In this document: piece by piece, positions 43,780 through 58,381 of the stretch | How positions within the stretch are numbered: position 1 is the stretch's first letter | How the letters are laid out: every line of letters begins with the position of its first letter | NCBI RefSeq assembly: GCF_003992725.1 | Contig: NZ_RZNF01000012.1 | Span: 930,001-994,000, forward strand | Length of the DNA: 64,000 bases | Direction: 5' to 3' | Origin: Rhodomicrobium lacus | GTDB taxonomy: Bacteria; Pseudomonadota; Alphaproteobacteria; Rhizobiales; Rhodomicrobiaceae | Position numbers and translations under genes: made by a program | Notes under the pieces: generated by a model | What the model saw: the letters and a program-made list of their open reading frames with translations, nothing else | Databases searched by the model: none | What the model was told of the DNA's origin: nothing

Positions 43780-45413
43780 AAGAGCGAACCCCATTCCCTG
43801 CCCGGTCTCTTGCCCGGGCGGGCCTTTTCGCGGTGATGATGACAACAGCTTTTCCGCATGCATCCATGGCGGCCGAGGGCCTTCCGCTTCGCCTCGATCC
43901 CGGCGCTTCGATAGAAGTGAATGTCGCGGCGACGGCTCCGGTCGTCATCGATGCCGGAACGCGCCCCGGCGATTACGTGGCGGGCGTGGTCGACGCCGGA
44001 GGCTCCGCAGTCACGCTCGAACTCTTGGCGGACGGCAAGCTCGTGCGACAGTTTTTCCTCAACGCGGCAGGGAGAAGCGATTTTCGCTATGTCGCCGATG
44101 AGGGTGACGTGCTGCGCCTCAGCGCGAGGGGGGCGGGGCGCGTGCTTGTCAGGCTCGACAAGCGCATCGGCGTGGCCGAACAGGTCGCGCCACCGAAAAA
44201 GCCGGTCAGCCCGATGATGGCGGACCTCGCCGCGAAAGTGGCGGCGGGCGAGAGCACGGATGCCTTCTGGCGGATTGCTGCCGAGAGGGGGACGCCCCTC
44301 GTCGAGCCGGGCCCGGAGGGCAAGGCGATCGTCACCTTCCTGATGCGCGGAGCCAGACGCGGCGTTCGCATTCTCGGCGCCCCGAGCACCGATCACGATC
44401 CGATGGAGCGGCTCGGCGACAGCGACGTCTGGTTCAAGACATATGTGCTCCCCTCCTCGACGCGGCTTTCCTATAAAATTGCGCCAGACGTGCCCGACCT
44501 CGCGGGCACCGAGCGTGAGCGGCGCGTCGCGATCCTCGCGACCGCAAAGGCGGACCCGCTCAATCGCGCGCCGTGGCCGGCAGAAGCCGGCGACGCCTAC
44601 AATCAAAGCTCAACCTTCTCATTGCCGGACGCGCCCGCGCAGCCCTGGATCGCCCCCGTCGGCGCGCCTTCGGGCCAACTTTCGACCCTCGCCTTCGCAA
44701 GCGCGAAGCTCGGCAATGCGCGCGACGTGACGATTTACACCCCTCCGCACTTCAACCCGGCCGATCCCGGAACCGTGCTGCTCTTCGTGTTCGACGGTCG
44801 CGAGTATCAGGGCAAGGTTCCAACCCCGCTTATTCTCGACAATATGATCGCGGCGCGCGTGATCCCCCCAACGGTTGCCGTCTTCATTCCCAACATCGAC
44901 GGCGATACAAGGGCTACCGAGCTTCCCGGCAACGAAACCTTCGCCGATGCTCTGGCAGGGGAGCTGCTTCCCGAGGTGCTTGCAGCGACCTCGCTCCGGC
45001 ATAGCCCCGCGCGCACCGCTCTCGCGGGATCGAGCTTTGGCGGGCTGGCCTCATCGACCATCGCCCTTCGTCACCCGGAAGCGTTCGGGAATGCCATCAG
45101 CCTGTCGGGCTCCTATTGGTGGCACCCCGACGACGCCGAACCCGCGCGAGCGAATCATGTCGCCGCGCTCGTCGCAAAGACGCCTCGCCGAGACGTCCGC
45201 TTCTTCCTGAGCGCGGGGCTTTTCGAGGCTGGAGGCGGCGGACGCCCGAGCATTCTTGAGACAAACCGTCATCTGCGCGACGTGCTCGAAGCGAAAGGCT
45301 ATGCAGTGATCGCGCGCGAATATGCGGGCGGCCACGACTATCTCGTATGGCGCGGAGCGCTGTCGGATGGGCTGCTGGCGCTCTTCGGCCGCGCTGAAAT
45401 TAAGGCACCTTGA
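43773..45413 (+). CDS. periplasmic siderophore esterase (enterochelin esterase Fes/IroE-like)
   Basis: The 546-residue protein has a signal peptide (LARAGLFAVMMTTAFPHASMA). An N-terminal Ig-like enterochelin-esterase domain (about 200-280, VTFLMRGARRGVRI, DVWFKTYVLPSSTRLSYKI) precedes an alpha/beta hydrolase of the esterase D type (VTIYTPPHFNPADPGTVLLFVFDG). The nucleophile is Ser421 in GSSFGG and the base His521 in GGHDYLVWR. It would cleave trilactone or related catecholate siderophores. The signal peptide places it in the periplasm, unlike cytosolic Fes. It starts inside the end of the receptor gene (ATGGTAA), so uptake and hydrolysis are coupled. Confidence 0.87.
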   Translation: MVKERTPFPARSLARAGLFAVMMTTAFPHASMAAEGLPLRLDPGASIEVNVAATAPVVIDAGTRPGDYVAGVVDAGGSAVTLELLADGKLVRQFFLNAAGRSDFRYVADEGDVLRLSARGAGRVLVRLDKRIGVAEQVAPPKKPVSPMMADLAAKVAAGESTDAFWRIAAERGTPLVEPGPEGKAIVTFLMRGARRGVRILGAPSTDHDPMERLGDSDVWFKTYVLPSSTRLSYKIAPDVPDLAGTERERRVAILATAKADPLNRAPWPAEAGDAYNQSSTFSLPDAPAQPWIAPVGAPSGQLSTLAFASAKLGNARDVTIYTPPHFNPADPGTVLLFVFDGREYQGKVPTPLILDNMIAARVIPPTVAVFIPNIDGDTRATELPGNETFADALAGELLPEVLAATSLRHSPARTALAGSSFGGLASSTIALRHPEAFGNAISLSGSYWWHPDDAEPARANHVAALVAKTPRRDVRFFLSAGLFEAGGGGRPSILETNRHLRDVLEAKGYAVIAREYAGGHDYLVWRGALSDGLLALFGRAEIKAP

Positions 45414-45743
45414 GGTGGCACGCCTCTGCGCGTTTGCAACTCTTTAAAGAGCGGCGGGTGCGAATCCGCCCTCACATTTTTGCTTTCCGCGAAGGGTTCC
45501 CAGCGGGATCGGAAGCTATTCGGCAGGCTGGCACACCCGGCCGAAAAAGATACGCTATCCCACCAATTATAATGGACAGCGAAATCAATAACTTGAAAGG
45601 TGTTGACGCACCATAGACATTGAAGATCAGAACTTCAAACGAACGTCTTCGTCGCTCAAGTCTGCGCCCCCATTTTTCCGCGTGCGCGCGTGGTCTAACA
45701 ATGCGCTGATATCGCAGCGCGTATTCAAACCGAAAGATTGCGG
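45414..45743. other. 330-base intergenic region between iron locus and nuclease-ATPase operon
   Basis: The flanking genes converge here. No clear hairpin terminator with a T tract is seen for either, and no gene is supported. The stretch 45540-45620 is AT-rich (contains ATTATAATGG). This is the left boundary of the putative defence module; no direct repeat or integrase scar was noticed. Confidence 0.4.
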
Positions 45744-48700
45744 CTACGTCAGCGACCCAGGGTAGGGGTTAATCGACACTGCGCGAGCCTTCTCCATTAC
45801 CTCCCCAGCCGTCGGCGGGTTCTTGGCGTGCCAGCTCAGACAAAGCGGCGTCTGGATCTTGAACGGGCGGGCGGATCCTTCGGTCGAAAAATAAAACTCA
45901 CCGAGCTTGAGGCGACCCACATCATCGGCTTCGCCGCCCTTTGCTCGAACCAGATCCTTGATCGCCTCGATGGCAGTCGGTGAACTCATCCTCCCGTAGA
46001 CGTGCGTCGTGCAATTGGACACGATGCCGTTGTCGATGCCTTTCGGCAGCTGCGTCGCGAGGATCATTCCGAGGCCGTATTTGCGCGCCTGAGCCGCGAG
46101 CGACTTCGCACTTTCCTTGCACGGCGTGCCAACTTGCGACGGCACGAAATTCTGAGCTTCGTCCATCACGTAGAGCAAACCGGTCTCGCTCGGATTGGCC
46201 TTGATCCAGGTGAAAAGCGCCATCTGCAGCTGGTTCACGAAGGCCTGCTTGGCGGCCTCGCTTGCAAGCCCCGAGAAGTTGATGACCGAAATGCGCGTCC
46301 TGCCCTTCGCGCCAAAGAAAAGCTGGGCGGGATCGAGCTTCACACCGGCTGAGCGCAGCAGCGGATTCGTGTCGACAGCGGCGCGAAGCTGGTCGGCCAT
46401 GTCGCTTGCGAGTTTGTAGGAGTCCTTGATCTGGCTCACTCCGTCGGGAAGCTCGGACAGAAGCCGGATGAAGTCTTCGAGCGAGTCTGTGCCGTCCTTC
46501 GCGAAGAAACGAAGCGCAGCGGCAAGCACGCCTTGTCTTAGCGTTGCCCTTTGGCCGCTGCCGCCGAGATAAGGCGTCAGCGTCGCGAGCGCCATGGCGA
46601 TGGCCTGCTCGCGTTCGTCCTGAGCCTCGCGGCCCTCTCCGATGCGCGAGAAGTCAGGCAACAGCGGCAGCGACATCGGGCGGCCGCTGCTCGCGCCCGG
46701 CGTCCAGATCACGACATCCGTGTTCTCGTGATACCTCTCAGCCCTGCCGGCGTCCTCGGCAGACATATCGGCGGGCGTTTCCGGCCAGCGGTCGCCGAGA
46801 CGCGAAAGGTCGTTGTTGATATCGAGAACGATGGCGGGAATGCCAAGAAGGGCGGCCTCCTCGACGATTCGCCGCAGCAGCACGGTCTTGCCGGAGCCCG
46901 ATCCGGCGATGATGGCGACGTGGCGCGGCAGGAGGGCTGCGTCGAGAGATACGGGGTCGCCGAGCTGGCCGCGCTCGAACCTCCGCCCGAGCGGGATCAG
47001 ACGCGGCGCGTTCTTTCGCTCATGCTGGCTGGCATCGCTTCTCGCGTGATCGCCGCTTTTAGGGGAGCCTGCACGCGTGCTGTCGCGCGCCGCGGAATTG
47101 CCGGGGGAAGACCCGTTGTCCGCTCCGTTGCCGGCGGGCCCCACCCCTCCGCTTCCGGGGCCACCTGCCGGGCCACCACTCGGCCTGTCGTCACCCGATG
47201 GGTTGCCATCGTCCGACAGGAACGGCGGCGGCGCAAGCTCCACGCTCCTGAAGAAATCCGTCTCGAACAACGGCTTCTTGCTGCGCAGCCAAGCCTCGAA
47301 TTCGATATTGTCCTGCTTCGCGAGCGAACGAAGCGCGGCAAAAATACGGAGATCCTTTTCAGCGGGCACGATGATCTTGCCGCCCGCCTTCCTGAACTGA
47401 TCCAGCAGCGTTTCGGTTTTCTTGCCCGTCGGGAGCGGAGAAGTGCGCAGCACATAGAGATGGCGGAATTTCAGCGCCGTATCGATGCCGGATGCCGTCA
47501 TCGCCGCCTTGAGGCGCGACTGGAATGCGATTGCGTTTACGTGCTCGATGATGCGGAAGCAGTAATGCTGTTCGCGGTCGCCCTCGTCATGGAACGTGAA
47601 GGACACGCGCCCATGCAGCGAAGGCCGCTTCTGGTCGGGGTCGCGCTGCGCCTCGGCATCGATTGCATCGGGCAAGTCATAATGCTTGACGAGGAACTGA
47701 AGCGTGGAATCGAGCAGCGCGCGAAGGTCGTCCTCGCCCGCGGGCGTGAACAGCGGCGCGACATTGGCCGCCGCCACCTCGCGCTCGAACGCTGCTTCGA
47801 TGTCGGCCCGTGGCGGCGCTGTCTCAGCGGAAGCTGCCTTGTCTTCCAGCGACAGGCATTCTGTAACGCGGCCTTCGGCGACGCATTTCCGGCGAAAGTC
47901 TTCGCAGCGCTTCAGAAGCTGGCGCGGCGTGTAGTCGACAGCGGCGTCCAACGACTCGCCTGTAAACGGCCATGTAGGATAGGGCGGCGTAAAGCCGTAC
48001 TGCTCATAGGCTGGAGCCAGACGCGCTGCGATGAGCGCTTCCGCCGTCTCGCGCGTTTGCAGCGTTTTTAAAGGCAGCCCGCTCAGGTAGCGATCGCGGA
48101 TCGAAGCCGTTGCGCCGCCCTCGATAATTTTCCAGGTCGCTTCGAGGCATGAAACAACCGTGACTGCTCGCCGCTTCTTCTCATGGATTTCCATCAAGCC
48201 TTCAGCGAGAAGCTCCACGATAGCCTTCGCCTCAAGTTCTTCTTCATTCGTTTGCTGTACCGCCCGAGCGCGTGCCTGCGCGTTGCTGGCGCTGACGATC
48301 GCATCAATCTGATCGACCGCGATGAGAGTGGGGCCGACAAGACTCATCAGCCATGAAAGCCCCTCGACGACCTTGATCGGTGAGTTCTCTTCCCTCAAAC
48401 CGAGCGGCCGCGCTTCTTCCTGATCGACGTCCATCCCCTGCAGCCAGGCATGCGCAACGCTATGGTAGTCGAGATCCTCCGAAATCATCAGGACGAGTGC
48501 GGTCACCACGTCGCGATGCTTAAGGGTGGCGGAACGATCCACCCTCGACAGCGCCGAAAGGAAGAGTTTCACAATTTCGGTGACGAGCTCGCGGGCATCC
48601 TTCTGATACCATTTCGTTGCCGCCGCGAGATCGCTCTTGATACCGAGGTAATCGGCGAGACGGCTTATGAGCAGATCGTATTGGGTTTGCCGGCCAGGTG

Positions 48701-49052
48701 TCCGTACCTGCAGCGAACTCAGAAAACCGAGCGCAACGGACGACCAGAAATCTTTCACGCCGACGAAGTCGAGAAGGACGAACCATCCGTTTGCCCTCCA
48801 GACACGCCGACGCAATTCGCCGATTAGGTGGGTTTTTCCGAAGCCCGCCGGCCCGACAAGAACCTTGCCGAGCGGTTCATTGTCGCTTTCAACCTGCGTC
48901 CGCGACAGGAAATAATCCATGATGTCGTCGGTCGCCGACTGGTTGATGTTCGACACGTGATAGTGCGGGTCTGTCCAGACGCTTTTCAACTGTCTTGTCC
49001 AGTCGAAATTCACCGAACGAAAGGCTTCAAGCGGAGCTTCGGAAACAGGCAT
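45744..49052 (-). CDS. dual ATPase: N-terminal AAA/STAND-like and C-terminal HerA-like (DUF87) domains
   Basis: The 1102-residue protein has two separate nucleotide-binding modules. The first (about 40-400) has Walker A GPAGFGKT (67-74) and a Walker B-like LIAVDQID (243-250), resembling AAA/ORC or KAP-type NTPases. The middle region (about 420-610) has no recognised domain. A Gly/Pro/Ser-rich linker spans about 611-680. The second module (about 685-1095) is HerA/FtsK-like: AGSGSGKT (716-723), YVMDEAQNF (961-969, Walker B) and the conserved LATQLPKGIDNGIVSNC (998-1014). HerA-type motors move along DNA and team with nucleases in repair and phage defence. The ATG overlaps the preceding stop (TAATG), so it is coupled to the two upstream genes. 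Function as an anti-phage motor is inferred. Confidence 0.85.
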   Translation of the reverse strand: MPVSEAPLEAFRSVNFDWTRQLKSVWTDPHYHVSNINQSATDDIMDYFLSRTQVESDNEPLGKVLVGPAGFGKTHLIGELRRRVWRANGWFVLLDFVGVKDFWSSVALGFLSSLQVRTPGRQTQYDLLISRLADYLGIKSDLAAATKWYQKDARELVTEIVKLFLSALSRVDRSATLKHRDVVTALVLMISEDLDYHSVAHAWLQGMDVDQEEARPLGLREENSPIKVVEGLSWLMSLVGPTLIAVDQIDAIVSASNAQARARAVQQTNEEELEAKAIVELLAEGLMEIHEKKRRAVTVVSCLEATWKIIEGGATASIRDRYLSGLPLKTLQTRETAEALIAARLAPAYEQYGFTPPYPTWPFTGESLDAAVDYTPRQLLKRCEDFRRKCVAEGRVTECLSLEDKAASAETAPPRADIEAAFEREVAAANVAPLFTPAGEDDLRALLDSTLQFLVKHYDLPDAIDAEAQRDPDQKRPSLHGRVSFTFHDEGDREQHYCFRIIEHVNAIAFQSRLKAAMTASGIDTALKFRHLYVLRTSPLPTGKKTETLLDQFRKAGGKIIVPAEKDLRIFAALRSLAKQDNIEFEAWLRSKKPLFETDFFRSVELAPPPFLSDDGNPSGDDRPSGGPAGGPGSGGVGPAGNGADNGSSPGNSAARDSTRAGSPKSGDHARSDASQHERKNAPRLIPLGRRFERGQLGDPVSLDAALLPRHVAIIAGSGSGKTVLLRRIVEEAALLGIPAIVLDINNDLSRLGDRWPETPADMSAEDAGRAERYHENTDVVIWTPGASSGRPMSLPLLPDFSRIGEGREAQDEREQAIAMALATLTPYLGGSGQRATLRQGVLAAALRFFAKDGTDSLEDFIRLLSELPDGVSQIKDSYKLASDMADQLRAAVDTNPLLRSAGVKLDPAQLFFGAKGRTRISVINFSGLASEAAKQAFVNQLQMALFTWIKANPSETGLLYVMDEAQNFVPSQVGTPCKESAKSLAAQARKYGLGMILATQLPKGIDNGIVSNCTTHVYGRMSSPTAIEAIKDLVRAKGGEADDVGRLKLGEFYFSTEGSARPFKIQTPLCLSWHAKNPPTAGEVMEKARAVSINPYPGSLT

Positions 49053-49753
49053 TATCTTTCAATCCAAAGAATATGACGAGGTTCACCGGCAAAGGAAATG
49101 GAAGCCGCGCGGTCGGCATCAGTGATCTCCGCGCGATTGTCGAGAGGATAGAGCACGGCAGCATCCTCTCGCTGCATGAGGGTAAGCGCTTCATCCAGCG
49201 TAGCGCGCTCCACATCCGCGAGCCGCGTGCGGATGTCCTTCAGAAGGGCACGCGTGTTGAAGCGGCCGCCGGTAGCGTCGAGATACGCGGTGCGGATGCG
49301 GTCGCGAAGCGAGCCTGCGGGCACCTTCGGCGGCGTCTTGTCATGGCCGTTCGCGCCATTCACCGGAGGTAGAGTCTGCGCGCCGAGCACGTCTGCCAAT
49401 GCCAGTCCACGCGCGTTGAGGAAGGCATCGAGCTTTACGAGCCAGCCGCGCAGGATTTCTGCGCCGGCGTTCGATTGCGCGGGCAGCGCATGGCCCAGGT
49501 TTTCGTTGGCCCACGCCCAACCCTTGTCCGAAACCTCGATCCAAATCTTCTGGCCGACCTTCCACCATTTGATGAGCCCCGCGTCTTCCAGCGCTTCACG
49601 ATCCGCCTTTTCCGGCGTCGGTTTCAGATCACCACGAAATGCACCAGCGTTTTCCTTGGCCAGTAGCGCCCACATTATGAGCGCCTGCTTTTCGGGCGAC
49701 GTCTTCTTTCCGCCAGTCTTCTTGCCAGCTTCGGTCTTGGTCTTGGCTGCCAC
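49052..49753 (-). CDS. small winged-helix-like protein of the nuclease-ATPase operon
   Basis: The 233-residue product has a Lys-rich N-terminus (MAAKTKTEAGKKTGGKK). A segment that reads like a winged helix follows (KQALIMWALLAKEN, ADREALEDAGLIKWWKVGQ, IWIEVSDKGWAWANE, about residues 20-85). A second helical part (about 140-220) contains DRIRTAYLDATGGRFNTRALLKDIRTRL. No named family is recognised. DNA or nucleoprotein binding is inferred. It starts with GTG one base after the nuclease stop, with GGAGG inside the nuclease 3' end as ribosome-binding site, and its stop overlaps the ATPase ATG. This fixes it as a genuine coupled gene. Confidence 0.72.
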   Translation of the reverse strand: MAAKTKTEAGKKTGGKKTSPEKQALIMWALLAKENAGAFRGDLKPTPEKADREALEDAGLIKWWKVGQKIWIEVSDKGWAWANENLGHALPAQSNAGAEILRGWLVKLDAFLNARGLALADVLGAQTLPPVNGANGHDKTPPKVPAGSLRDRIRTAYLDATGGRFNTRALLKDIRTRLADVERATLDEALTLMQREDAAVLYPLDNRAEITDADRAASISFAGEPRHILWIER

Positions 49754-49754
49754 C

Positions 49755-50837
49755 TCAAACCTCCATTGTCATCGTCTGGCGGCGCAGGCGCACCAGATCG
49801 CGGATCTTTTCGAGGGCTTTTTCGCAGTCCTGCGCGATCTCATCATTGGCAAGGCGAAGCACGACATAGCCGCTCAGCATTAGCTCATAATCGCGATGGC
49901 GGTCGCGCGCAAAGGCTGACCGGCTTCCGTGGCTCTCATATCCATCAAGTTCCACAACCAGACGGCCCTCGGCCCACAGAAGATCCACCCGGGGCTGCGT
50001 ACCGCGTTCGGTCGTGACCGTTTGGTTGAAGGCGAAGAGCGCGCCAAGTTCAGCGTCGGCCGCAAGCATCGTTGCCACCTTCTTCTCGATGTCGCTCAAA
50101 GGATGGGGCGAGCCGCGCCAAGGCGCGATCCAAGGGGCAAGGGCTTCGCTTCGTGGCACGGTCGCAGGTGCCCTTTCTCCCACGATGCGCGCGCCATGAA
50201 GAATGCGGTCGAAAGGTGGTTCGTTCGGCGGAAGACTGTCGAACAGGACGACGACGCCGCAAAACTGCGCGATCCATTCAAGCGCGCGCACGAAAGCGTC
50301 AGACGGCGCGTTGCTTTCGCCATCTGGGAACGTCACCGCCATCACAAGTCCGTCTGGCGCTATCGCCTTCGTTAACTGCTCGATGCTGGCGGCGAGGGAA
50401 AAGCCATCGACAAGCGGGAGCCTGGCGTGAAGTGCCGAAAGCGCAGCCAGTTCCGCCCAACGAGGCTGCACGCCCGCGACGTTTTTGGCCGCTTCGTTCG
50501 CCAGAACGCGAACGGCATGCCGCCCGAGTGAATCGTTGGTGCAAATGCCGAAGTCGACACCCGCCCCCGCGTACCAACGGGGCCACAGCCGCAACGCGGA
50601 AGATGCCATGAAGGAGGCAATCTGCTGGACTACGTCTTGCGAAGATCTCCACGGCTGGGTGGTCCGAAACAGCACCCGAATGAAGTTTCGAGGCAGTTCG
50701 GCTTGATCAATGAGTGTCCGCAGGTCGCCTGGCTCTAAACCGGCGAGGGAAAGCGGCATCCCCCGTTTGGCATTCAAGACGAATGTTGCGACATCTGCCG
50801 GATTGAGAACTTGGTCGCTATCGCAAAAAGGAAGCAA
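49755..50837 (-). CDS. protein with C-terminal DUF559-type PD-(D/E)xK nuclease domain
   Basis: The protein has about 360 residues. The C-terminal part (about 247-345) fits the DUF559/Vsr-like endonuclease fold: Glu251 in SDIEKKVA, Asp285 in PRVDLLW, Glu296 and Asp298 in VVELDGYE, then ESHG and RDRHRDYELMLSGYVVLRL. These are the acidic catalytic residues of PD-(D/E)xK nucleases. The first 245 residues have no recognised domain. The frame continues upstream from the TTG at 50837 for about ten more codons without an ATG, so the start is uncertain. It is first in a three-gene coupled operon and is the likely effector. Confidence 0.78.
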   Translation of the reverse strand: MLPFCDSDQVLNPADVATFVLNAKRGMPLSLAGLEPGDLRTLIDQAELPRNFIRVLFRTTQPWRSSQDVVQQIASFMASSALRLWPRWYAGAGVDFGICTNDSLGRHAVRVLANEAAKNVAGVQPRWAELAALSALHARLPLVDGFSLAASIEQLTKAIAPDGLVMAVTFPDGESNAPSDAFVRALEWIAQFCGVVVLFDSLPPNEPPFDRILHGARIVGERAPATVPRSEALAPWIAPWRGSPHPLSDIEKKVATMLAADAELGALFAFNQTVTTERGTQPRVDLLWAEGRLVVELDGYESHGSRSAFARDRHRDYELMLSGYVVLRLANDEIAQDCEKALEKIRDLVRLRRQTMTMEV

Positions 50838-51023
50838 AGTCTCGTAACATTGATTGATAAACCTGCCGATCGCTTAAGCTTAGACGTGACGGCTTTGATT
50901 TGCAAGATTACAATGACCACTGGTGTTCTCTAAAAGCCCTCTGTCTGCAAGGCCTCCCGATGCACGCCATGTCGAGCACGGTCTGTTGGGGAACCGGCTT
51001 TTCACGATGCCCCGCTGAATCAA

Positions 51024-51049
51024 AAAGCTCCCGCCGAGGCGGGAGCTTT
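51024..51049 (-). terminator. strong hairpin terminator between NYN gene and nuclease operon
   Basis: The arms AAAGCTCCCGC and GCGGGAGCTTT pair perfectly around a 4-base loop; because the stem is A-rich on the left and T-rich on the right it can work in both directions. It lies 75 bases past the stop of the minus-strand NYN gene, separating it from the nuclease operon. Confidence 0.85.
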
Positions 51050-51064
51050 GTCAGCAGTGTGAAG

Positions 51065-51086
51065 GCGGCCACGGGGCCGCTTTTTT
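51065..51086 (+). terminator. second hairpin with T tract, plus-strand orientation
   Basis: GCGGCC and GGCCGC pair around ACGG, and six T residues follow on the plus strand. No plus-strand gene precedes it, so either a short untranslated RNA ends here or the hairpin is incidental. Confidence 0.5.
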
Positions 51087-51124
51087 CGATGGTTGCGAGT
51101 TCACGCGGCGCGGATGCGCGCCCG

Positions 51125-53059
51125 TCAATGCTTGAAGCTGAACCGCTGTTTCGGCGCCTGCTCCGGCTCCAGCTCGCGATCGAACCCGAAATCCGGCGGG
51201 AGCGGAATATCACTGCGGGGATCCGGCGGCGGCAAGGCGGAATCCGCCATGTAGCTGCGTGGATTGGGTGCCGGCCTTTGCACACCGACCGGCGTCAAGG
51301 GCGTTGCCTGTTGACCAGCGCTGGAATTGATCGTCGTCTGGCCGACGGCCGACCACTGGCTGGCGCCGAACCAGACCTGAACGAGTTGATGCTCGTCTTC
51401 GGTGAGCTTCACTCCCGCATGGTGGCACTTCGCCAGCACGAAATCGCGATAGGCGCGCGCCACGGCCGCCGGGGAGCGGGTATGTTCAAGCCATGGGTCG
51501 ATCTCGTCCACCGCGTCGAGCACGAAAGACACGTCCTTCATCGCGACGCGAAGCCCCTCGCGCGTGGCCCGCTCGACGACCGCCTGCGCTGTCTTCACGG
51601 GAGCGAATCCGCGCTCGTGAACCTCGGTCGCGATGAGCGTGAACAGCAGCTGATATTCGCTTGGAGGAAGCGGCGGCGCCTTGCAGGCGTCGTAGATGCG
51701 GGTGATCGAGGTTTGCAGTTCTGCGAGCTTGGACGAGCCCGTTTCCTGCGGCTGAGGTTGCGGAACAGGCTGCCTGTCCACAAGCTTCTGCGGAGCAGGC
51801 TGCGGCGACGCCAGATCGACGCGCTCCTCGATCCTGTGCCGCGTGGGATCGTAGACGAAATGCGGCGGCTTGTCCGTGAGACGGAAGTTGTCGGGCAGCG
51901 TGGCGTTGAGGAAGTTCAGGAATCCGCCGGAGCCTGCCCAGTTCGTGCCCAGCGTCTTCGCGTGACCGAGGATTTTTTGCGCGCGGTCTGCCAGATAGGC
52001 GATCGGAACGGGCTTCTCGGAGGATTGCACCACATCGAGGACGAGATTCAGGATCTCCGCCCCGATCGACTGGAAGTCCTCGATCAGGGATTGCACCGCC
52101 GAATTCGCATGCCCCGAAGGCAGCCTGCGCTTTGCCGGTTCCTGCGGAAGGTTATAGCCGCTGTAATTTGGCGCGGCGGGGATCGCCTGCGAAGGTGCTC
52201 CATAAGCGGGAGGCGCCGGAATGGCCTGGGCCGGTGCGCCGTAAGCAGGCGTCGGCGCGGGTATCGCCTGTGCGGGCGCGCCGTAGCCCTGAAACGAGGG
52301 ATGACCGTTGAAGCCGGCTTGCGGCACTGCCGGAAGCGATGACGCTGGCGCATGCGCCGCCGGAAGAGTGGCGGGAGGCGTGTGCGAGCGGCTCTGCTCG
52401 TAGCCCGGCTGTCTTGCGCCGTCATAGCCGAGGCGCGGCGCACGGTCCTGACCGATCATCGGCGCATCGCCCGCCGTCTCGCCGAGAAGGAAGGAGATCA
52501 TGTCGCGTTCTTCGATCCAGCCGTCGCTGAACGCCTTGTAGATATCCGCTGTGCTTTCATTCGCATAGACCACGGTGCGGCGGTCGTGCGAACGAAGATG
52601 ATGCAGAACGGGCGTGAAATCGGCGTCGCCCGAAAGGACGATGAATTCGCCGAAGCGCGTCGGATGCTCCAGAAAATCGCGGATGTCGCACGCGATCTTG
52701 ATGTCGGTGCCGTTCTTGAACTGGTTGGAAAGCGGCTGGCAATCCACAACTTCGAGCCCCGCCATCATGAAATTCACGCGGACGTCGGCGAAGTTGTGCG
52801 GATCGTGCGGGCCGCCACGGCTGACGAGCTTCCGGCCCGGATTGCCATAGCAGCGCGCCACGGCGAATCGCCGCCGCACATAATCGGAATGCGACTTGAA
52901 GCGGACAAGCCCGCCCGTCGCGATTCGAGCCATCCATTCAGCCGGATTGCGGGCGAATCGCCCGGCGGCTTCCTCGCTCTGGCGGCGCAAGGATAGATAC
53001 ACGTTGTCGAAATCGACGAACAACGCGGAAAGGCAGACCTCCGCGGACCCCGGAATCAT
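51125..53059 (-). CDS. NYN/LabA-type putative RNase with LOTUS (OST-HTH) domain
   Basis: The 644-residue protein starts with an NYN (PIN-like) nuclease domain (about 10-190): LFVDFDNVYLSL (Asp16, Asp18), GTDIKIACDI (Asp119) and LSGDADFTPVL (Asp145, Asp147) supply the acidic metal-binding residues. A disordered Pro/Ala/Gln-rich region contains three copies of AYGAPAQAIPAP. An OST-HTH/LOTUS domain follows (SLIEDFQSIGAEILNLVL to DKPPHFVYDP), and near the C-terminus an OHA-like helical part (SEYQLLFTLIATEVHERGF, EIDPWLEHTRSP, QLVQVWFG). NYN plus LOTUS domains point to RNA cleavage with guided RNA binding. The ATG at 53059 is preferred; the frame reaches 53116. Confidence 0.85.
   Translation of the reverse strand: MIPGSAEVCLSALFVDFDNVYLSLRRQSEEAAGRFARNPAEWMARIATGGLVRFKSHSDYVRRRFAVARCYGNPGRKLVSRGGPHDPHNFADVRVNFMMAGLEVVDCQPLSNQFKNGTDIKIACDIRDFLEHPTRFGEFIVLSGDADFTPVLHHLRSHDRRTVVYANESTADIYKAFSDGWIEERDMISFLLGETAGDAPMIGQDRAPRLGYDGARQPGYEQSRSHTPPATLPAAHAPASSLPAVPQAGFNGHPSFQGYGAPAQAIPAPTPAYGAPAQAIPAPPAYGAPSQAIPAAPNYSGYNLPQEPAKRRLPSGHANSAVQSLIEDFQSIGAEILNLVLDVVQSSEKPVPIAYLADRAQKILGHAKTLGTNWAGSGGFLNFLNATLPDNFRLTDKPPHFVYDPTRHRIEERVDLASPQPAPQKLVDRQPVPQPQPQETGSSKLAELQTSITRIYDACKAPPLPPSEYQLLFTLIATEVHERGFAPVKTAQAVVERATREGLRVAMKDVSFVLDAVDEIDPWLEHTRSPAAVARAYRDFVLAKCHHAGVKLTEDEHQLVQVWFGASQWSAVGQTTINSSAGQQATPLTPVGVQRPAPNPRSYMADSALPPPDPRSDIPLPPDFGFDRELEPEQAPKQRFSFKH
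52171..52290 (-). repeat. coding tandem repeat in the NYN-LOTUS gene
   Basis: About three in-frame copies of a 12-14 codon unit encode AYGAPAQAIPAP variants. The stretch forms a flexible linker between the nuclease and LOTUS domains and is prone to length variation. Confidence 0.75.
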
Positions 53060-53407
53060 AGCTCTATACCCCGCTCGGACCATCGTCTGCCAACATGACC
53101 CCTCAAACCGGCACACGATAGTTTATTTAAATTTATGGCCATTTAGCAAGGCTCCTGCTCAGCCCGCTCCAACTCCGGCCACTCTCATTTCGGAAACGTG
53201 AAGCGAATTGCAAAGCGGGCTCCTTGCCCCAGATCGAGCCTCGTCCGCATTCGAGGCCCGAAATCCCGCTGTCGCTCGCGCCACTCCGAGAAGCTAAGGC
53301 ATTAAATGTTAAACGGCTCCCCCGTGCAAGCCCAACCTCCGCGCGCGGAGCTTATCCACATGGTGCGGAGCGGAGAGGACTGAAAACTCCCCGCGCCGTT
53401 GCATCTC
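53060..53407. other. 348-base intergenic region upstream of NYN-LOTUS gene
   Basis: The promoter of the NYN gene should lie in the AT-rich part near 53110-53150 (contains TTTATTTAAATTTATGG). No gene or hairpin terminator for the RND operon, which ends at 53408, was found. Confidence 0.4.
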
Positions 53408-56400
53408 CTATTGACCGGCCTTTACAAGCTCTGGCTGTACCGTGGCGTTTTCTTGCCCGGGCCGTTGGGTTCGTCTCTCGACGCCCGGCACAGCAACCCG
53501 GAACACAAGCGCGTAAAGCGCCGGCAGAAATGTCATCGTGAGCACCGTTGCGGCGAGGATTCCGCCCATCATCGCCACCGCCATCGGCCCCCAGAACGAA
53601 GACCCCGCGAGCGGAACGAGCGCCAGCACGGCCGCCGTCGCCGTCAGCATGATCGGGCGAAAGCGTCTGACCGCCGAGCCGACGATGGCATTATAGGTGT
53701 CGATTCCCGCAGCGAGATCCTGCTGGATCTGGTCCACGAGAATCACCGTGTTGCGCATGATGATGCCCGCGAGTGCGATCACGCCCAGAATCGCCACGAA
53801 GCCGAAAGGCATCTGCGTCACGAGCAGAGCGAACGAAGCGCCGATGATCCCGAGCGGCGCCGTCACGAGCACCAGCAGCGTGTGCGAGAAACTCTGCAAT
53901 TGCACCATCAGCAGAAGGAGGACGACGATGACGAGGATCGGCACCTTCGCGGCAATCGACGTCTGCCCCTTGGCCGATTCCTCGACGCCGCCCTGCATTT
54001 CGATGCGATAGCCGAGCGGCAGACCAGCGCGGAGCGGCGCGAGTTCCTTGTAGATGGCGGTGACGACGTCGACCGACTGAACGCCATCCGGGATTTGTCC
54101 GCGAACGGTGATCGTCGGCAGGCGGTCGCGCCGCCATTCGACACCCGGTTCAAACACGAGCCGCGCCTTCGCGACCTGAGACACGGGTACGGCCCCGCCC
54201 GACGAGGTCTTGACGTAGGCGTTTTCCACCGCTGTAAGCAGGCCGCGCGTGCGATCGGGCTCGCGAAGAACCACGCCTATGGTCTGGTCCTTCTCCCGGA
54301 ACTCCGCGAGCGTGTTGCCGGACAGCACCGTTTGCAGCGTCTGGCGCACCGCATTCGAGGTGACGCCGATAGCGCGCGCGCGGTCCTGATCGATATCGAG
54401 TTGCAGCGTCGGCGCAGGCTCAAGCCAGTTGTCGTGCAAATTGAAGACGAGCGGGTTCGCGGCGGCGGCCTTCGTCACCTCGTTCGCGATACGGCGTACC
54501 TCCGCACGGTCGGGCCCCTGCACGCGGAGCTGGATCGCCCAGCCCACCGGCGGCCCCAGCGTCAGCGGCTCTACCTTGAAGCGCACATTGGGGAATTCCG
54601 CCGACAGCAACGCGCGGATCCTGTGGACCACCGCATCGCGCATTGCCGTGCCTTCGGTGTTCTTCGGCAAAACGAGAAATTGCGAGAAATTCTTGGTTTG
54701 AAGCTGCTGATCGAGTGGGAGGAAAAAGCGCGGCGCGCCCTCGCCTACGAAGGCGGTGAAGGTCGCCACGTCGGGATCGGCGAGCAGCTTCTGTTCGAGC
54801 TTCTTCGCCGCGGCATCCGTTTCGGCGTATGACGAGCCCTCCGGAAGCCAGAGGTCGACGAGAATTTCGGGGCGATCCGAGCCGGGGAAGAACGACTTCG
54901 GCACGAACGCGAACCCGATGAGCGCCAGGATGAAGGTTGCGGCGGTGATCGAAACGACCTTCCTGCGATGCAGGATGCAAAACGCGATTGCCGCGCGGAG
55001 CCGCCGATAGATGGGCGTATCGTAGACGTCATGGTGCTCCGGGTTTTCCACCGGACGGTGACGCAGCATCGTGTGCCCGATATAGGGCGTGAAATAAACG
55101 GCGGCGAACCACGAGATGACGAGCGAAAGGCCCACCACCCAGAACAGGGAATTCACATATTCCCCCGATGTGCTCGCTGCGAAACCCACCGGGATGAAGC
55201 CCGCTGTCGTTATCAGCGTGCCCGTCAGCATCGGAAAGGCCGTCGATGTGTAGGCAAACGAGGCGGCCCGGACCTTGTCGAAGCCTTCGTCGAGCTTCCG
55301 CTCCATCATTTCGACGGCAATCATGGCATCGTCGACGAGAAGGCCGAGTGCGATGATCAGCGCGCCGAGCGAGATGCGCTGGAGATCGATTCCGATGATG
55401 AACATGGCGAGGAACGTCGCGGCGAGAACGAGCGGGATCGTCAGCGCGACGACCACGCCCGCTCGCCAGCCGAGCGCCAGCAGCGACACCGCGAGCACAA
55501 TCAGCAGCGCCTCGCCGAGCGCCTTCAGAAACTCGCCGATGGCCTTCGTCACCACGGCGGGCTGATCGGAAATCTTCGTGAAAGTCACGCCCACCGGCAG
55601 TTCGTTATGAATCTGCGCGAGACCGGTTTCGAGCGTCTTGCCGACTTCCACCACATTATAGCCGTTCGACATGACGACGCCGAGCAGCACGGCCTCGTTG
55701 CCGTCGTGGCGGATGCGGGCGACCGGCGGATCTTCGAGGCCCCGCTTTACCTCCGCGATATCGCCGAGGCGGACGGTCTGCGCGCCCGCGCGAAGGCGAA
55801 GCTCGCGGATTTCATCGACGGTCATGATCGAGCCCTGAACGTCGAGCCGGACCGCTCGCTCGCTTGTCTGCACCGAACCGGCCGGCGCCTGACTGTTCTG
55901 CCCGTCCAGCGCCGCCTTGATGTCCGCTACGGCTATATTGCGTTCGGCCAGCACTCGCGACGGAATCTCGATGTAGACCTTTTCCGGTTGCACGCCGAGC
56001 AGGTCCACCTTGCCGACGCCCTCAACGCGGAGCAGGACATCGCGTGCGCTTTTCGCGAAGTCGCGCAATTCCGGATAGCTGAAGCCCTTACCCTCGATGG
56101 CGTAGAGCGCGAGGTAGGTGTCGCCGAACTCGTCGTTGAAGAAGGGCCCGACGACGCCCGCGGGCAGGTTCTGCTTGATGTCGCCGATCTTCTTGCGAAC
56201 CTGGTAGAATGCATCGGGCACGTCGCGCCCCCTTGCATCGCCGCGCAATTCCACGAACACCACCGCACTGCCCGGATGAGTGTAGGACTGCACATAATCG
56301 AGATGGGGCGTCTCCTGAAGCTTGGTCTCGATCTTGTCGACAACCTGCTCCTGCATCTCGCGTACGGAGGCTCCGGGCCACTCGACCTGAACAACCATCA

Positions 56401-56581
56401 TTCGGAACTGGAAGTCCGGGTCTTCCTTCTGGCCGAGGTTCTTCAGCGCATAGATGCCCATCGCGAGGATAAGAACCAGCAAGAACCGCGTCAGGCTTCC
56501 ATGGCGAATGGCCCATGCGGAGAGATTGAAGCCGCCGTTGTCTTCGTGCCTTGCGGAAGCACGCTCGTTGGAGGGTTCCAT
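53408..56581 (-). CDS. RND efflux transporter permease (AcrB/MdtB-like)
   Basis: The 1057-residue inner-membrane protein has the RND layout: twelve helices in two repeats with two large periplasmic loops. Visible landmarks are FLLVLILAMGIYALKNLGQKEDP at the N-terminus, GALIIALGLLVDDAMIAVEMMER in helix 4 with the proton-relay Asp pair, and GVIALAGIIMRNTVILVDQI in the second half. It exports drugs or other amphiphiles with a periplasmic adaptor and an outer-membrane channel; no channel gene is adjacent. It is the last gene of an operon with the adaptor gene, 26 bases apart. Confidence 0.93.
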   Translation of the reverse strand: MEPSNERASARHEDNGGFNLSAWAIRHGSLTRFLLVLILAMGIYALKNLGQKEDPDFQFRMMVVQVEWPGASVREMQEQVVDKIETKLQETPHLDYVQSYTHPGSAVVFVELRGDARGRDVPDAFYQVRKKIGDIKQNLPAGVVGPFFNDEFGDTYLALYAIEGKGFSYPELRDFAKSARDVLLRVEGVGKVDLLGVQPEKVYIEIPSRVLAERNIAVADIKAALDGQNSQAPAGSVQTSERAVRLDVQGSIMTVDEIRELRLRAGAQTVRLGDIAEVKRGLEDPPVARIRHDGNEAVLLGVVMSNGYNVVEVGKTLETGLAQIHNELPVGVTFTKISDQPAVVTKAIGEFLKALGEALLIVLAVSLLALGWRAGVVVALTIPLVLAATFLAMFIIGIDLQRISLGALIIALGLLVDDAMIAVEMMERKLDEGFDKVRAASFAYTSTAFPMLTGTLITTAGFIPVGFAASTSGEYVNSLFWVVGLSLVISWFAAVYFTPYIGHTMLRHRPVENPEHHDVYDTPIYRRLRAAIAFCILHRRKVVSITAATFILALIGFAFVPKSFFPGSDRPEILVDLWLPEGSSYAETDAAAKKLEQKLLADPDVATFTAFVGEGAPRFFLPLDQQLQTKNFSQFLVLPKNTEGTAMRDAVVHRIRALLSAEFPNVRFKVEPLTLGPPVGWAIQLRVQGPDRAEVRRIANEVTKAAAANPLVFNLHDNWLEPAPTLQLDIDQDRARAIGVTSNAVRQTLQTVLSGNTLAEFREKDQTIGVVLREPDRTRGLLTAVENAYVKTSSGGAVPVSQVAKARLVFEPGVEWRRDRLPTITVRGQIPDGVQSVDVVTAIYKELAPLRAGLPLGYRIEMQGGVEESAKGQTSIAAKVPILVIVVLLLLMVQLQSFSHTLLVLVTAPLGIIGASFALLVTQMPFGFVAILGVIALAGIIMRNTVILVDQIQQDLAAGIDTYNAIVGSAVRRFRPIMLTATAAVLALVPLAGSSFWGPMAVAMMGGILAATVLTMTFLPALYALVFRVAVPGVERRTQRPGQENATVQPELVKAGQ

Positions 56582-56607
56582 TGTGTCGCGTCCCGATCGA
56601 GTTCTGT

Positions 56608-57765
56608 TCAGTAGGTCCGCGAGCCGTGGGCGGCTACCGTCGGGGAGAAATCCTGCGAGAGACGCACTTCCATGCCGTCTCTCAGAAACTGAATGCCGCC
56701 GCTGACAACGATCTCGCCCGGAATGAGGCCGGACGTTATGCGCACGCCATCCTCCGCCACTCCCCCGAGCGTCACTTCGCGGCGTGCGACCGTCTCGCGC
56801 GCCTTGTCAGCGACATAGACAACGGGCTTTCCCCCGTCTTCGGTAAGCGCGGTCAGAGGCACGACGACAGGCGGCGTCGCCTCCTTGACGCGAAATGTAA
56901 CGGACGTCGTCATGCCAAGGCGCATTTCCGGCTTCGGATGCGCGATCGCCACGCGAACGGCATAGGTGCGCGAGGCCGTATCTGCGGCGCTGGCGATCTC
57001 GCGGATCTTGCCGTCGCTGCTTACTTCGGGCGCCGACCAAAGCGCGATGCGGGCAGGTTCGCCGACGCTGAGCCGCGCGATTTCATTCTCCGGCACTGCG
57101 GCCGCGACCTCTACGGATTCCGTGAGGGCGAGAGAAATCACCGCCTGGCCCGCGCTCACCACCTGCCCCGGCTCGGCGCGGACAGCCGTTACGATACCGT
57201 CCTTGTCGGCGACAAGAAGCGCATAGCTTGTTGCGTTCGCAGCCTGATCGAGCTGATCTTTCGCCGAGGTGTACGCTGCCGTTGCGGCGTCGTAGTCCAG
57301 CTTCCGCTGGTCATAGACGGCCTTGGCGATGAAGCCCTTCGGAAGCAGATAGGCCGCGCGGTCGAAGGCATCTTTCGCAACGTCGACGCGCGCCTTCGCG
57401 CTCTGAACACTGGCGCGAGCGCTGTTTTCCGCGAGCTTCAGGTCCACTTCGTCAAGGCGCGCGATCTTCTGGCCCGCCTTCACCTGTTCGCCGACATTCA
57501 CGAAGCGCTCGACGATCTTGCCCGCAACTCGAAAGCCGAGCTGGCTTTCAATGCGAGGCGCAATCACGCCTGAGTAGGTGAGCGTGCGTTCAGCCGATGG
57601 CGGCTGGACGACGAAAGTCTTGACCGGGCGAGCGGGTTGCGACGCCTCCTGTTTGTCGCCGCATGCCGCGAGAGCGAGCGGGAGGAGAAGAAGGGTCACA
57701 GCACCCCGAACCTGCCACCGGGTGTGAAATGATGAATTCTCATAATCGTCATCAAAGGACAGCAT
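56608..57765 (-). CDS. RND efflux periplasmic adaptor subunit (lipoprotein)
   Basis: The 385-residue membrane-fusion protein has a lipoprotein signal (TLLLLPLALAACGDK, lipobox Cys near residue 35). The biotinyl-like barrel and hairpin regions follow (GVIAPRIESQLGFRVAGKI, VNVGEQVKAGQKIARLD, KDGIVTAVRAEPGQVVSAGQ), then the beta-barrel with KPEMRLGMTTSVTF and the C-terminal DGVRITSGLIPGEIVVSGG. It links the RND pump to an outer-membrane channel. It lies between the TetR regulator and the permease. Confidence 0.92.
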   Translation of the reverse strand: MLSFDDDYENSSFHTRWQVRGAVTLLLLPLALAACGDKQEASQPARPVKTFVVQPPSAERTLTYSGVIAPRIESQLGFRVAGKIVERFVNVGEQVKAGQKIARLDEVDLKLAENSARASVQSAKARVDVAKDAFDRAAYLLPKGFIAKAVYDQRKLDYDAATAAYTSAKDQLDQAANATSYALLVADKDGIVTAVRAEPGQVVSAGQAVISLALTESVEVAAAVPENEIARLSVGEPARIALWSAPEVSSDGKIREIASAADTASRTYAVRVAIAHPKPEMRLGMTTSVTFRVKEATPPVVVPLTALTEDGGKPVVYVADKARETVARREVTLGGVAEDGVRITSGLIPGEIVVSGGIQFLRDGMEVRLSQDFSPTVAAHGSRTY

Positions 57766-57790
57766 GGATTCAGCCTCTTCTGCTTTTGCC

Positions 57791-58381
57791 TTAAGCCCTC
57801 AGGGCTGAAAGAACGAACGCGGCCATATCCGAGGCCGAAGGCGTCCTTGGGTTTGAACCGAATTGCGCGACGACGACCGGATGGGAGCAGACCATGATTG
57901 CGCCAACGGTGCGCCTCGCGGCCTGCTCAGGGTCTTGAGCGCGAAACTCGCCGGACGCAATGCCGCTTGCGATGATTTCGGCAACCATTTCGTCAATGAA
58001 ACGAAGATGTGGCTCGATTACATCCCACTGCTCGTCCATGGCAACCACAACCATGTCGTGGACCTTCCTGTCATTGATGAGTGTGTTGCGAGTATGGTCC
58101 GACAGATGTTCGATGAACCGTGTCAGGCGGTCGCTCGCCGCGCCGCTTGCGCTTGCAATCGTCCGCAGACTGGTATGCAGCGTCGCGATGATGCGGGCGC
58201 AGATCGCCTCGTTGATCTCGGCCTTGGACCCGAAGAAACGGTACACGTTGGCGGGTGACATGCCGCATGCATGGGCGATGTCCGCGACTGTGGTCTTGGA
58301 GTAGCCGAAATGGCGAAACAGACGCTCGGCCTCCCCGAGGATGCGATCGCGCGTGATCTCAGCGGTCGACGTTTGCGTCAT
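57791..58381 (-). CDS. TetR-family regulator of the RND efflux operon
   Basis: The 196-residue repressor has the N-terminal TetR helix-turn-helix (RDRILGEAERLFRHFGYSKTTVADIAHACGMSPANVYRFFGSK, about residues 10-52, given in part) and a helical ligand-binding C-terminus. It is the first gene of the RND operon, 25 bases before the adaptor gene, so it most likely represses the pump and itself and is released by a pump substrate. Confidence 0.9.
   Translation of the reverse strand: MTQTSTAEITRDRILGEAERLFRHFGYSKTTVADIAHACGMSPANVYRFFGSKAEINEAICARIIATLHTSLRTIASASGAASDRLTRFIEHLSDHTRNTLINDRKVHDMVVVAMDEQWDVIEPHLRFIDEMVAEIIASGIASGEFRAQDPEQAARRTVGAIMVCSHPVVVAQFGSNPRTPSASDMAAFVLSALRA

Follow-up and report, generated by a model that had tools for sequence, protein, structure and literature searches.

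The described systems closest to the locus studied here form the Orc/Cdc6-type HerA/FtsK capture class, in which an Orc/STAND ATPase, a HerA translocase, a restriction endonuclease (REase) and a winged helix-turn-helix domain (wHTH) occur in mobile neighborhoods and are predicted to intercept invading DNA (PMC10853773). In the model given in the main description of the class, the ATPase and the wHTH localize the apparatus and HerA pumps DNA to the nuclease; an inactive REase separates the core of the Orc ATPase from the wHTH at its C-terminus (PMC10853773). The class is a prediction, and the literature searched contains no experimental test of it.

Here, we describe a cassette of three genes (A, B, and C) in a 64,000-nt stretch of DNA from Rhodomicrobium lacus, referred to below as the window. 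The cassette presents a conserved architecture, intact motifs, coupled gene junctions and a linkage of its three genes that is maintained at unrelated sites. We consider it fairly probable that A-B-C is a co-translated Orc/Cdc6-type HerA/FtsK capture module directed against invading DNA.

Results

Two ATPases in a single frame

Gene C lies on the minus strand at positions 45744 to 49052, where one unbroken frame of 1102 aa runs from 49052 to 45744; the plus strand across this interval is interrupted by stops. A preliminary description of the window had recognized the single frame and had given no strand for it. The encoded protein is a fusion of an AAA+/STAND-like ATPase, an alpha/beta middle domain, a disordered linker and a HerA translocase. 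Pfam searches matched AAA_22 (1.4e-7) and AAA_16 (4e-7, best stretch at residues 61-192) in the N-terminal part and DUF87/HerA (8.8e-10) in the C-terminal part, in agreement with the initial proposal that two different P-loop ATPases are joined in one chain. The motifs also lie where they were first placed: Walker A at 67-74 (G67-T74), the Walker B-like motif LIAVDQID at 243-250, the HerA Walker A at 716-723 and the HerA Walker B at 961-969, near D964-E965. An alignment of seven sequences (the window protein and six homologues that are 34-59% identical to it) revealed that G67, G70, G72, K73, T74, D247, Q248, D250, G719-T723, and D964-E965 are invariant.

The frame of gene C is unbroken in seven of eight relatives from Alphaproteobacteria and Actinomycetota. 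A fusion created by sequencing error can be ruled out because other genomes carry full-length homologues in one frame. The AlphaFold2 model of gene C (16-row alignment) reached a mean pLDDT of 75.7 and presents two confident regions flanking a disordered stretch at residues 614-682; its pTM is only 0.45, so that the model does not inform on how the domains are arranged with respect to one another.

Domains of gene C

The N-terminal domain (residues 28-400; positions 47853 to 48971, minus strand) is, from its profile matches (AAA_16, AAA_22, nSTAND1 and BrxC_BrxD) and motif alignment, clearly an AAA+/STAND P-loop ATPase, putatively of the Orc/BrxC-D-like kind, and it was modeled with a pLDDT mostly between 75 and 94. 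In addition to Walker A (67-74) and the D247-Q248 pair of Walker B, it contains a conserved arginine (Arg321). Across the N-domains of the family, AAA_16 was matched in 14 of 15, nSTAND1 in 10 of 15 and BrxC_BrxD in 3 of 15, and a glutamine stands beside the Walker B aspartate in all 15 aligned domains. A D-Q Walker B is typical of nSTAND1 ATPases. The conservation of this pair, together with the nSTAND1 matches, suggests a slow, switch-like ATPase; D247-Q248 is more in keeping with a switch than with a second motor.

The N-terminal ATPase is followed by a middle alpha/beta domain (at about 420-605, delimited here as residues 418-606; positions 47235 to 47801, minus strand), which was missed in the earlier domain account that correctly listed both ATPases and the linker. 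The AlphaFold2 secondary structure orders a helix at 437-457, strands at 464-469, 481-487 and 493-501, a helix at 507-521 and a strand at 530-535, and in this order the domain resembles an inactive REase-like core. No catalytic D/ExK pattern was conserved in it across the family alignment. Profile searches with the middle domain returned no match and we therefore infer its fold from the predicted secondary structure. No C-terminal wHTH was identified beyond the middle domain of gene C.

The low-complexity linker (residues 611-682; positions 47007 to 47222, minus strand) is rich in Gly, Pro, Ser, and Ala. The Gly/Pro/Ser-rich character reported for it previously was borne out by its composition (49% G+P+S vs. 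20% in the whole protein) and it is predicted to be disordered, with a pLDDT below 50 at residues 614-682. This is the least conserved part of gene C, with 17% identity against 42-57% in the other regions, and among the close relatives its length ranges between 43 and 86 residues.

Finally, the HerA/FtsK-type translocase domain (residues 685-1090; positions 45783 to 47000, minus strand) was assigned from the DUF87 match and from its best PDB matches: HerA of anti-phage and repair complexes (Z of 24-28), DndH-C (Z of 26), and VirB4, which is also near. The fold search was dominated by HerA structures: HerA-NurA and archaeal HerA were the top matches of gene C in both Foldseek and VIA, the VIA rows covering only residues 469-1087 of the model. 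The mad8 profile and the HerA defense profiles of PADLOC matched all or nearly all members of the gene C family; such matches reflect homology of the motor more than membership in a system.

Partner genes and cassette structure

The context of gene C had been described without its two partner genes. Gene A (positions 49755 to 50837, minus strand) encodes a protein of about 360 aa, its own start codon being uncertain, with a C-terminal DUF559/Vsr-like endonuclease domain (DUF559 in Pfam, 4.2e-10; PDB 3hrl, 8e-10). Its Vsr-like residues D285, E296, H303 and D312 are invariant in eight homologues, and the nuclease motifs of gene A are intact, as are the HerA motifs of gene C. Judging from the DUF559 match and the conserved acidic residues, gene A is predicted to encode an active REase.

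Gene B (positions 49052 to 49753, minus strand) encodes 233 aa, with a predicted C-terminal winged helix (146-233) and a probable N-terminal winged helix of the MarR/ZitR-like type. The model presents the wHTH order at residues 146-233 with a pLDDT of 75-90. Its top Foldseek matches are mostly winged-helix proteins or regulators but have E-values of at least 0.15, none of them significant, and the match to the ZitR profile is weak (E = 0.02). We conclude that gene B probably encodes a winged-helix, DNA-binding protein. A 3097-aa SNF2-related protein encoded by a Rhodovastum plasmid (L080:9518-18811) contains, close to its N-terminus, a domain that is 41% identical to the C-terminal domain of gene B (residues 148-233).

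One base separates the end of gene A from the start of gene B, and the stop of gene B overlaps the start of gene C (TAATG). Because the junctions overlap or leave a single base, translational coupling of the three genes is implied, with C as the last gene of a cassette of about 5.1 kb. The cassette includes neither a DNA methylase nor any other gene that would mark self DNA.

The NYN gene at positions 51125-53116 was considered as a fourth member and rejected, since sister genomes devoid of the cassette retain it, the other cassette loci are without a homologue of it, and terminator-like hairpins lie between it and the cassette. Two hairpins follow this gene at positions 51020-51080, the second with a T run; the automatic scan listed neither. 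Genes for an RND efflux pump, a membrane-fusion protein and a TetR regulator (positions 53408-58381, minus strand) lie upstream of the NYN gene and are common to the sister genomes.

Distribution and mobility

The A-B-C order is kept in all nine loci that we compared across Alphaproteobacteria and Actinomycetota (the window, L001-L006, L049, and G616; L007 was left out since it begins inside gene C at a contig end). The flanking genes differ among these loci: the Tsukamurella cassette, for instance, lies among ribosomal protein genes. In the plasmid collection, A and B were never found without C, with the exception of the single gene B C-terminal domain in the giant SNF2 protein. Three of the nine loci were drawn from this collection. 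Two of them seem to be chromosomal, to judge from the length of the Nonomuraea record (11.8 Mb) and from the ribosomal genes in that of Tsukamurella; we therefore make no claim of plasmid carriage. Phage and viral collections contained no relative.

None of the four other genomes of the genus carries gene C. In the fetched stretches of sister genomes, the DNA matches the window up to position 45389 and again from 51122, and the segment from 45390 to 51121, a 5.7-kb gap containing the whole cassette and short flanks, has no match. Both flanks were found in sister genomes and no clean empty site was, because the two flanks sit there in different contexts. We found no convincing terminal repeats or att sites flanking the cassette, no tRNA by it, and no integrase, relaxase or replication gene alongside it. 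The patchy presence and the differing flanks across the nine loci nevertheless indicate mobile neighborhoods, and horizontal spread of A-B-C as a module would be the best explanation of these patterns. As side observations, the Rhodoplanes copy of gene C (L005, around 10270) is frameshifted, which may be a sequencing error, and a broken C-terminal remnant of gene C alone is found in G197 (L048, G197:C23:4181-4711).

Fusion as the rule

Functions such as those of gene C had been thought to reside usually on separate proteins. This is not supported for its family, since every close homologue is fused and so are the members of a second family; the description of the capture class likewise has components combined "in single or multiple polypeptides" (PMC10853773). 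When split versions were sought among HerA matches on plasmids, no split ATPase partner was identified: three of those examined were Sir2-HerA pairs and one was an unclassified ATP-binding protein from Nocardia.

The second ATPase-HerA family (P0004; profile built from 10 aligned proteins of about 1120-1240 aa, from the same taxonomic order) aligns with the gene C family along almost its full length, over 1002 columns (hhalign E = 8.6e-61). At all 10 Hyphomicrobiales loci sampled (L039-L047 and L050; e.g., L039:6659-11289), a gene of about 380 aa is followed by the 1120-1240-aa fusion in the same chromosomal order, which also includes a divergent, small lipoprotein-like gene. The sequence pattern of the 380-aa proteins raised the suspicion of a wHTH-like fold, but their profile comparison with gene B was unconvincing (probability of 7%). 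No homologue of gene A was found at these loci. As this nuclease-less locus of two genes holds one conserved chromosomal place, a resident role is suggested for the same engine, and the locus probably encodes a resident DNA-handling complex.

The window genome also carries a distant ATPase-HerA fusion of 1018 aa (L016, 8380-11436, minus strand; G000:C12, about 126379-129435), with AAA_22 and HerA_C matches at opposite ends and a glycosyltransferase gene nearby. Each of the five genomes of the genus gave related matches, and the protein represents a probable third fused family. The three groups have in common the Walker A of both ATPases, the DE of the HerA Walker B, the D-Q of the N-terminal Walker B and an arginine equivalent to R321.

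Discussion

Several lines of evidence favor a role of the cassette in defense: the A-B-C linkage, the gene junctions, the DUF559 match of gene A with its invariant Vsr-like residues, the HerA fold, the PADLOC matches, the patchy presence, and the fit to the class described in PMC10853773. Against this, the neighborhood in the window, with its RND pump and an enterochelin-esterase-like gene, is no obvious defense island, and neither the middle domain nor gene B gave significant matches. The cassette is also devoid of a modification gene by which self DNA would be spared.

By homology, gene C would hexamerize through its HerA domain, and its AAA+/STAND domain may act as a nucleotide-dependent switch. 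Together with gene B and the middle domain, this switch would recognize invading DNA or load on it, and would then permit the HerA ring, tethered by the flexible linker, to pump double-stranded DNA, which is the known function of HerA. The DUF559 nuclease of gene A would cut the DNA on delivery. We infer the oligomerization, gating, target recognition, and cleavage set out here, as well as the function in defense; it is plausible, as was suggested from the first inspection of the fusion, that the hexameric DNA motor would be under the direct control of an ATPase with a sensing or assembly role.

Alternatively, the cassette could be a machine for DNA repair or end resection of the HerA-NurA type, with HerA pumping broken ends to DUF559 instead of NurA. 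HerA-NurA and archaeal HerA are indeed the top structural matches and a nuclease and a translocase are encoded together, but we regard this as unlikely, given that the cassette is patchy, changes sites and is absent from sister genomes, that it includes an extra ATPase domain and gene B, and that DUF559/Vsr and NurA are distinct nuclease families. There is a similarly small, marginally lower chance that A-B-C is a module by which a mobile element is maintained, transferred or partitioned, and that its ATPase and wHTH would bind a site while HerA moved the DNA of the element; the FtsK/TrwB-like fold of the translocase and the gene B domain of the plasmid-borne SNF2 protein are compatible with such a role, whereas the lack of an integrase, relaxase, replication gene or terminal repeat with the cassette, the intact nuclease of the operon and the lack of relatives on viral contigs or phages argue against it. 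The least probable alternative is a resident complex for chromosome management, the role suspected for the P0004 family, with A as an accessory nuclease. It draws on full-length profile homology to the syntenic, nuclease-less Hyphomicrobiales locus and conflicts with the non-syntenic, patchy distribution of the A-B-C family.

We retain the capture module as our preferred reading. The ATPase-HerA engine itself is not tied to defense, since the related family is chromosomally fixed and without nuclease. It is possible, though doubtful, that the ATPase-middle domain-HerA architecture is an old stand-alone engine, present as the fixed two-gene locus in part of the Hyphomicrobiales and as the solitary, genus-conserved gene of the window genome, from which A-B-C was derived as a mobile restriction device by the addition of a DUF559 nuclease. 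The cassette constitutes a small, complete and clonable version of a predicted HerA-based defense class, and its motor and switch, being in one chain, make the gating of a HerA pump by an Orc/STAND domain directly testable. The nuclease-less chromosomal relatives offer a comparison of defense and resident roles.

Among known systems, HerA-NurA and DndF/DptF-DptH were the comparisons initially proposed, and both are apt for the HerA domain; the cassette as a whole has neither NurA nor a DndFGH set. Like HerA-NurA, it combines a HerA translocase with a nuclease, and it differs by its extra ATPase and wHTH; the genes neighboring the fusion include DUF559 and no NurA. DndFGH/DptFGH likewise associates a P-loop ATPase, a wHTH protein, and a HerA motor, and the HerA domain of the cassette is similar to DndH-C (Z of 26). 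That system, however, consists of three large separate proteins with another DndF architecture, whereas the cassette comprises DUF559, a 233-aa protein and a fusion of which only the HerA part matches DndH, and has no phosphorothioate link. Sir2-HerA (Nezha) and DUF4297-HerA also pair a HerA ring with a partner effector; in the cassette, the effector is a DUF559 nuclease and the HerA chain carries a whole extra ATPase domain. Among PADLOC profiles, mad8 of the MADS system gave the strongest match to the HerA domain of gene C (7.2e-26), and no methyltransferase or other mad gene was present among the neighbors scanned. Some members of the gene C family have an N-terminal ATPase related to BrxC/BrxD of BREX and to BREX-related capture systems (PMC12839542); the cassette neighbors scanned included no PglZ, PglX, or methylase.

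The Orc/Cdc6-type HerA/FtsK capture class, to which A-B-C would belong, is already published (PMC10853773), and we compared the exact DUF559 arrangement with the main description of that class. The REases in this description belong to two families, one of them AbiJ-like; that of A-B-C is DUF559. The cassette resembles the class in the HerA/FtsK translocase provided by gene C, in its predicted active REase and in its mobile neighborhoods, and would also do so in its candidate Orc/Cdc6-like ATPase, its probable wHTH and a putative inactive REase beside the ATPase, the last assigned from secondary structure.
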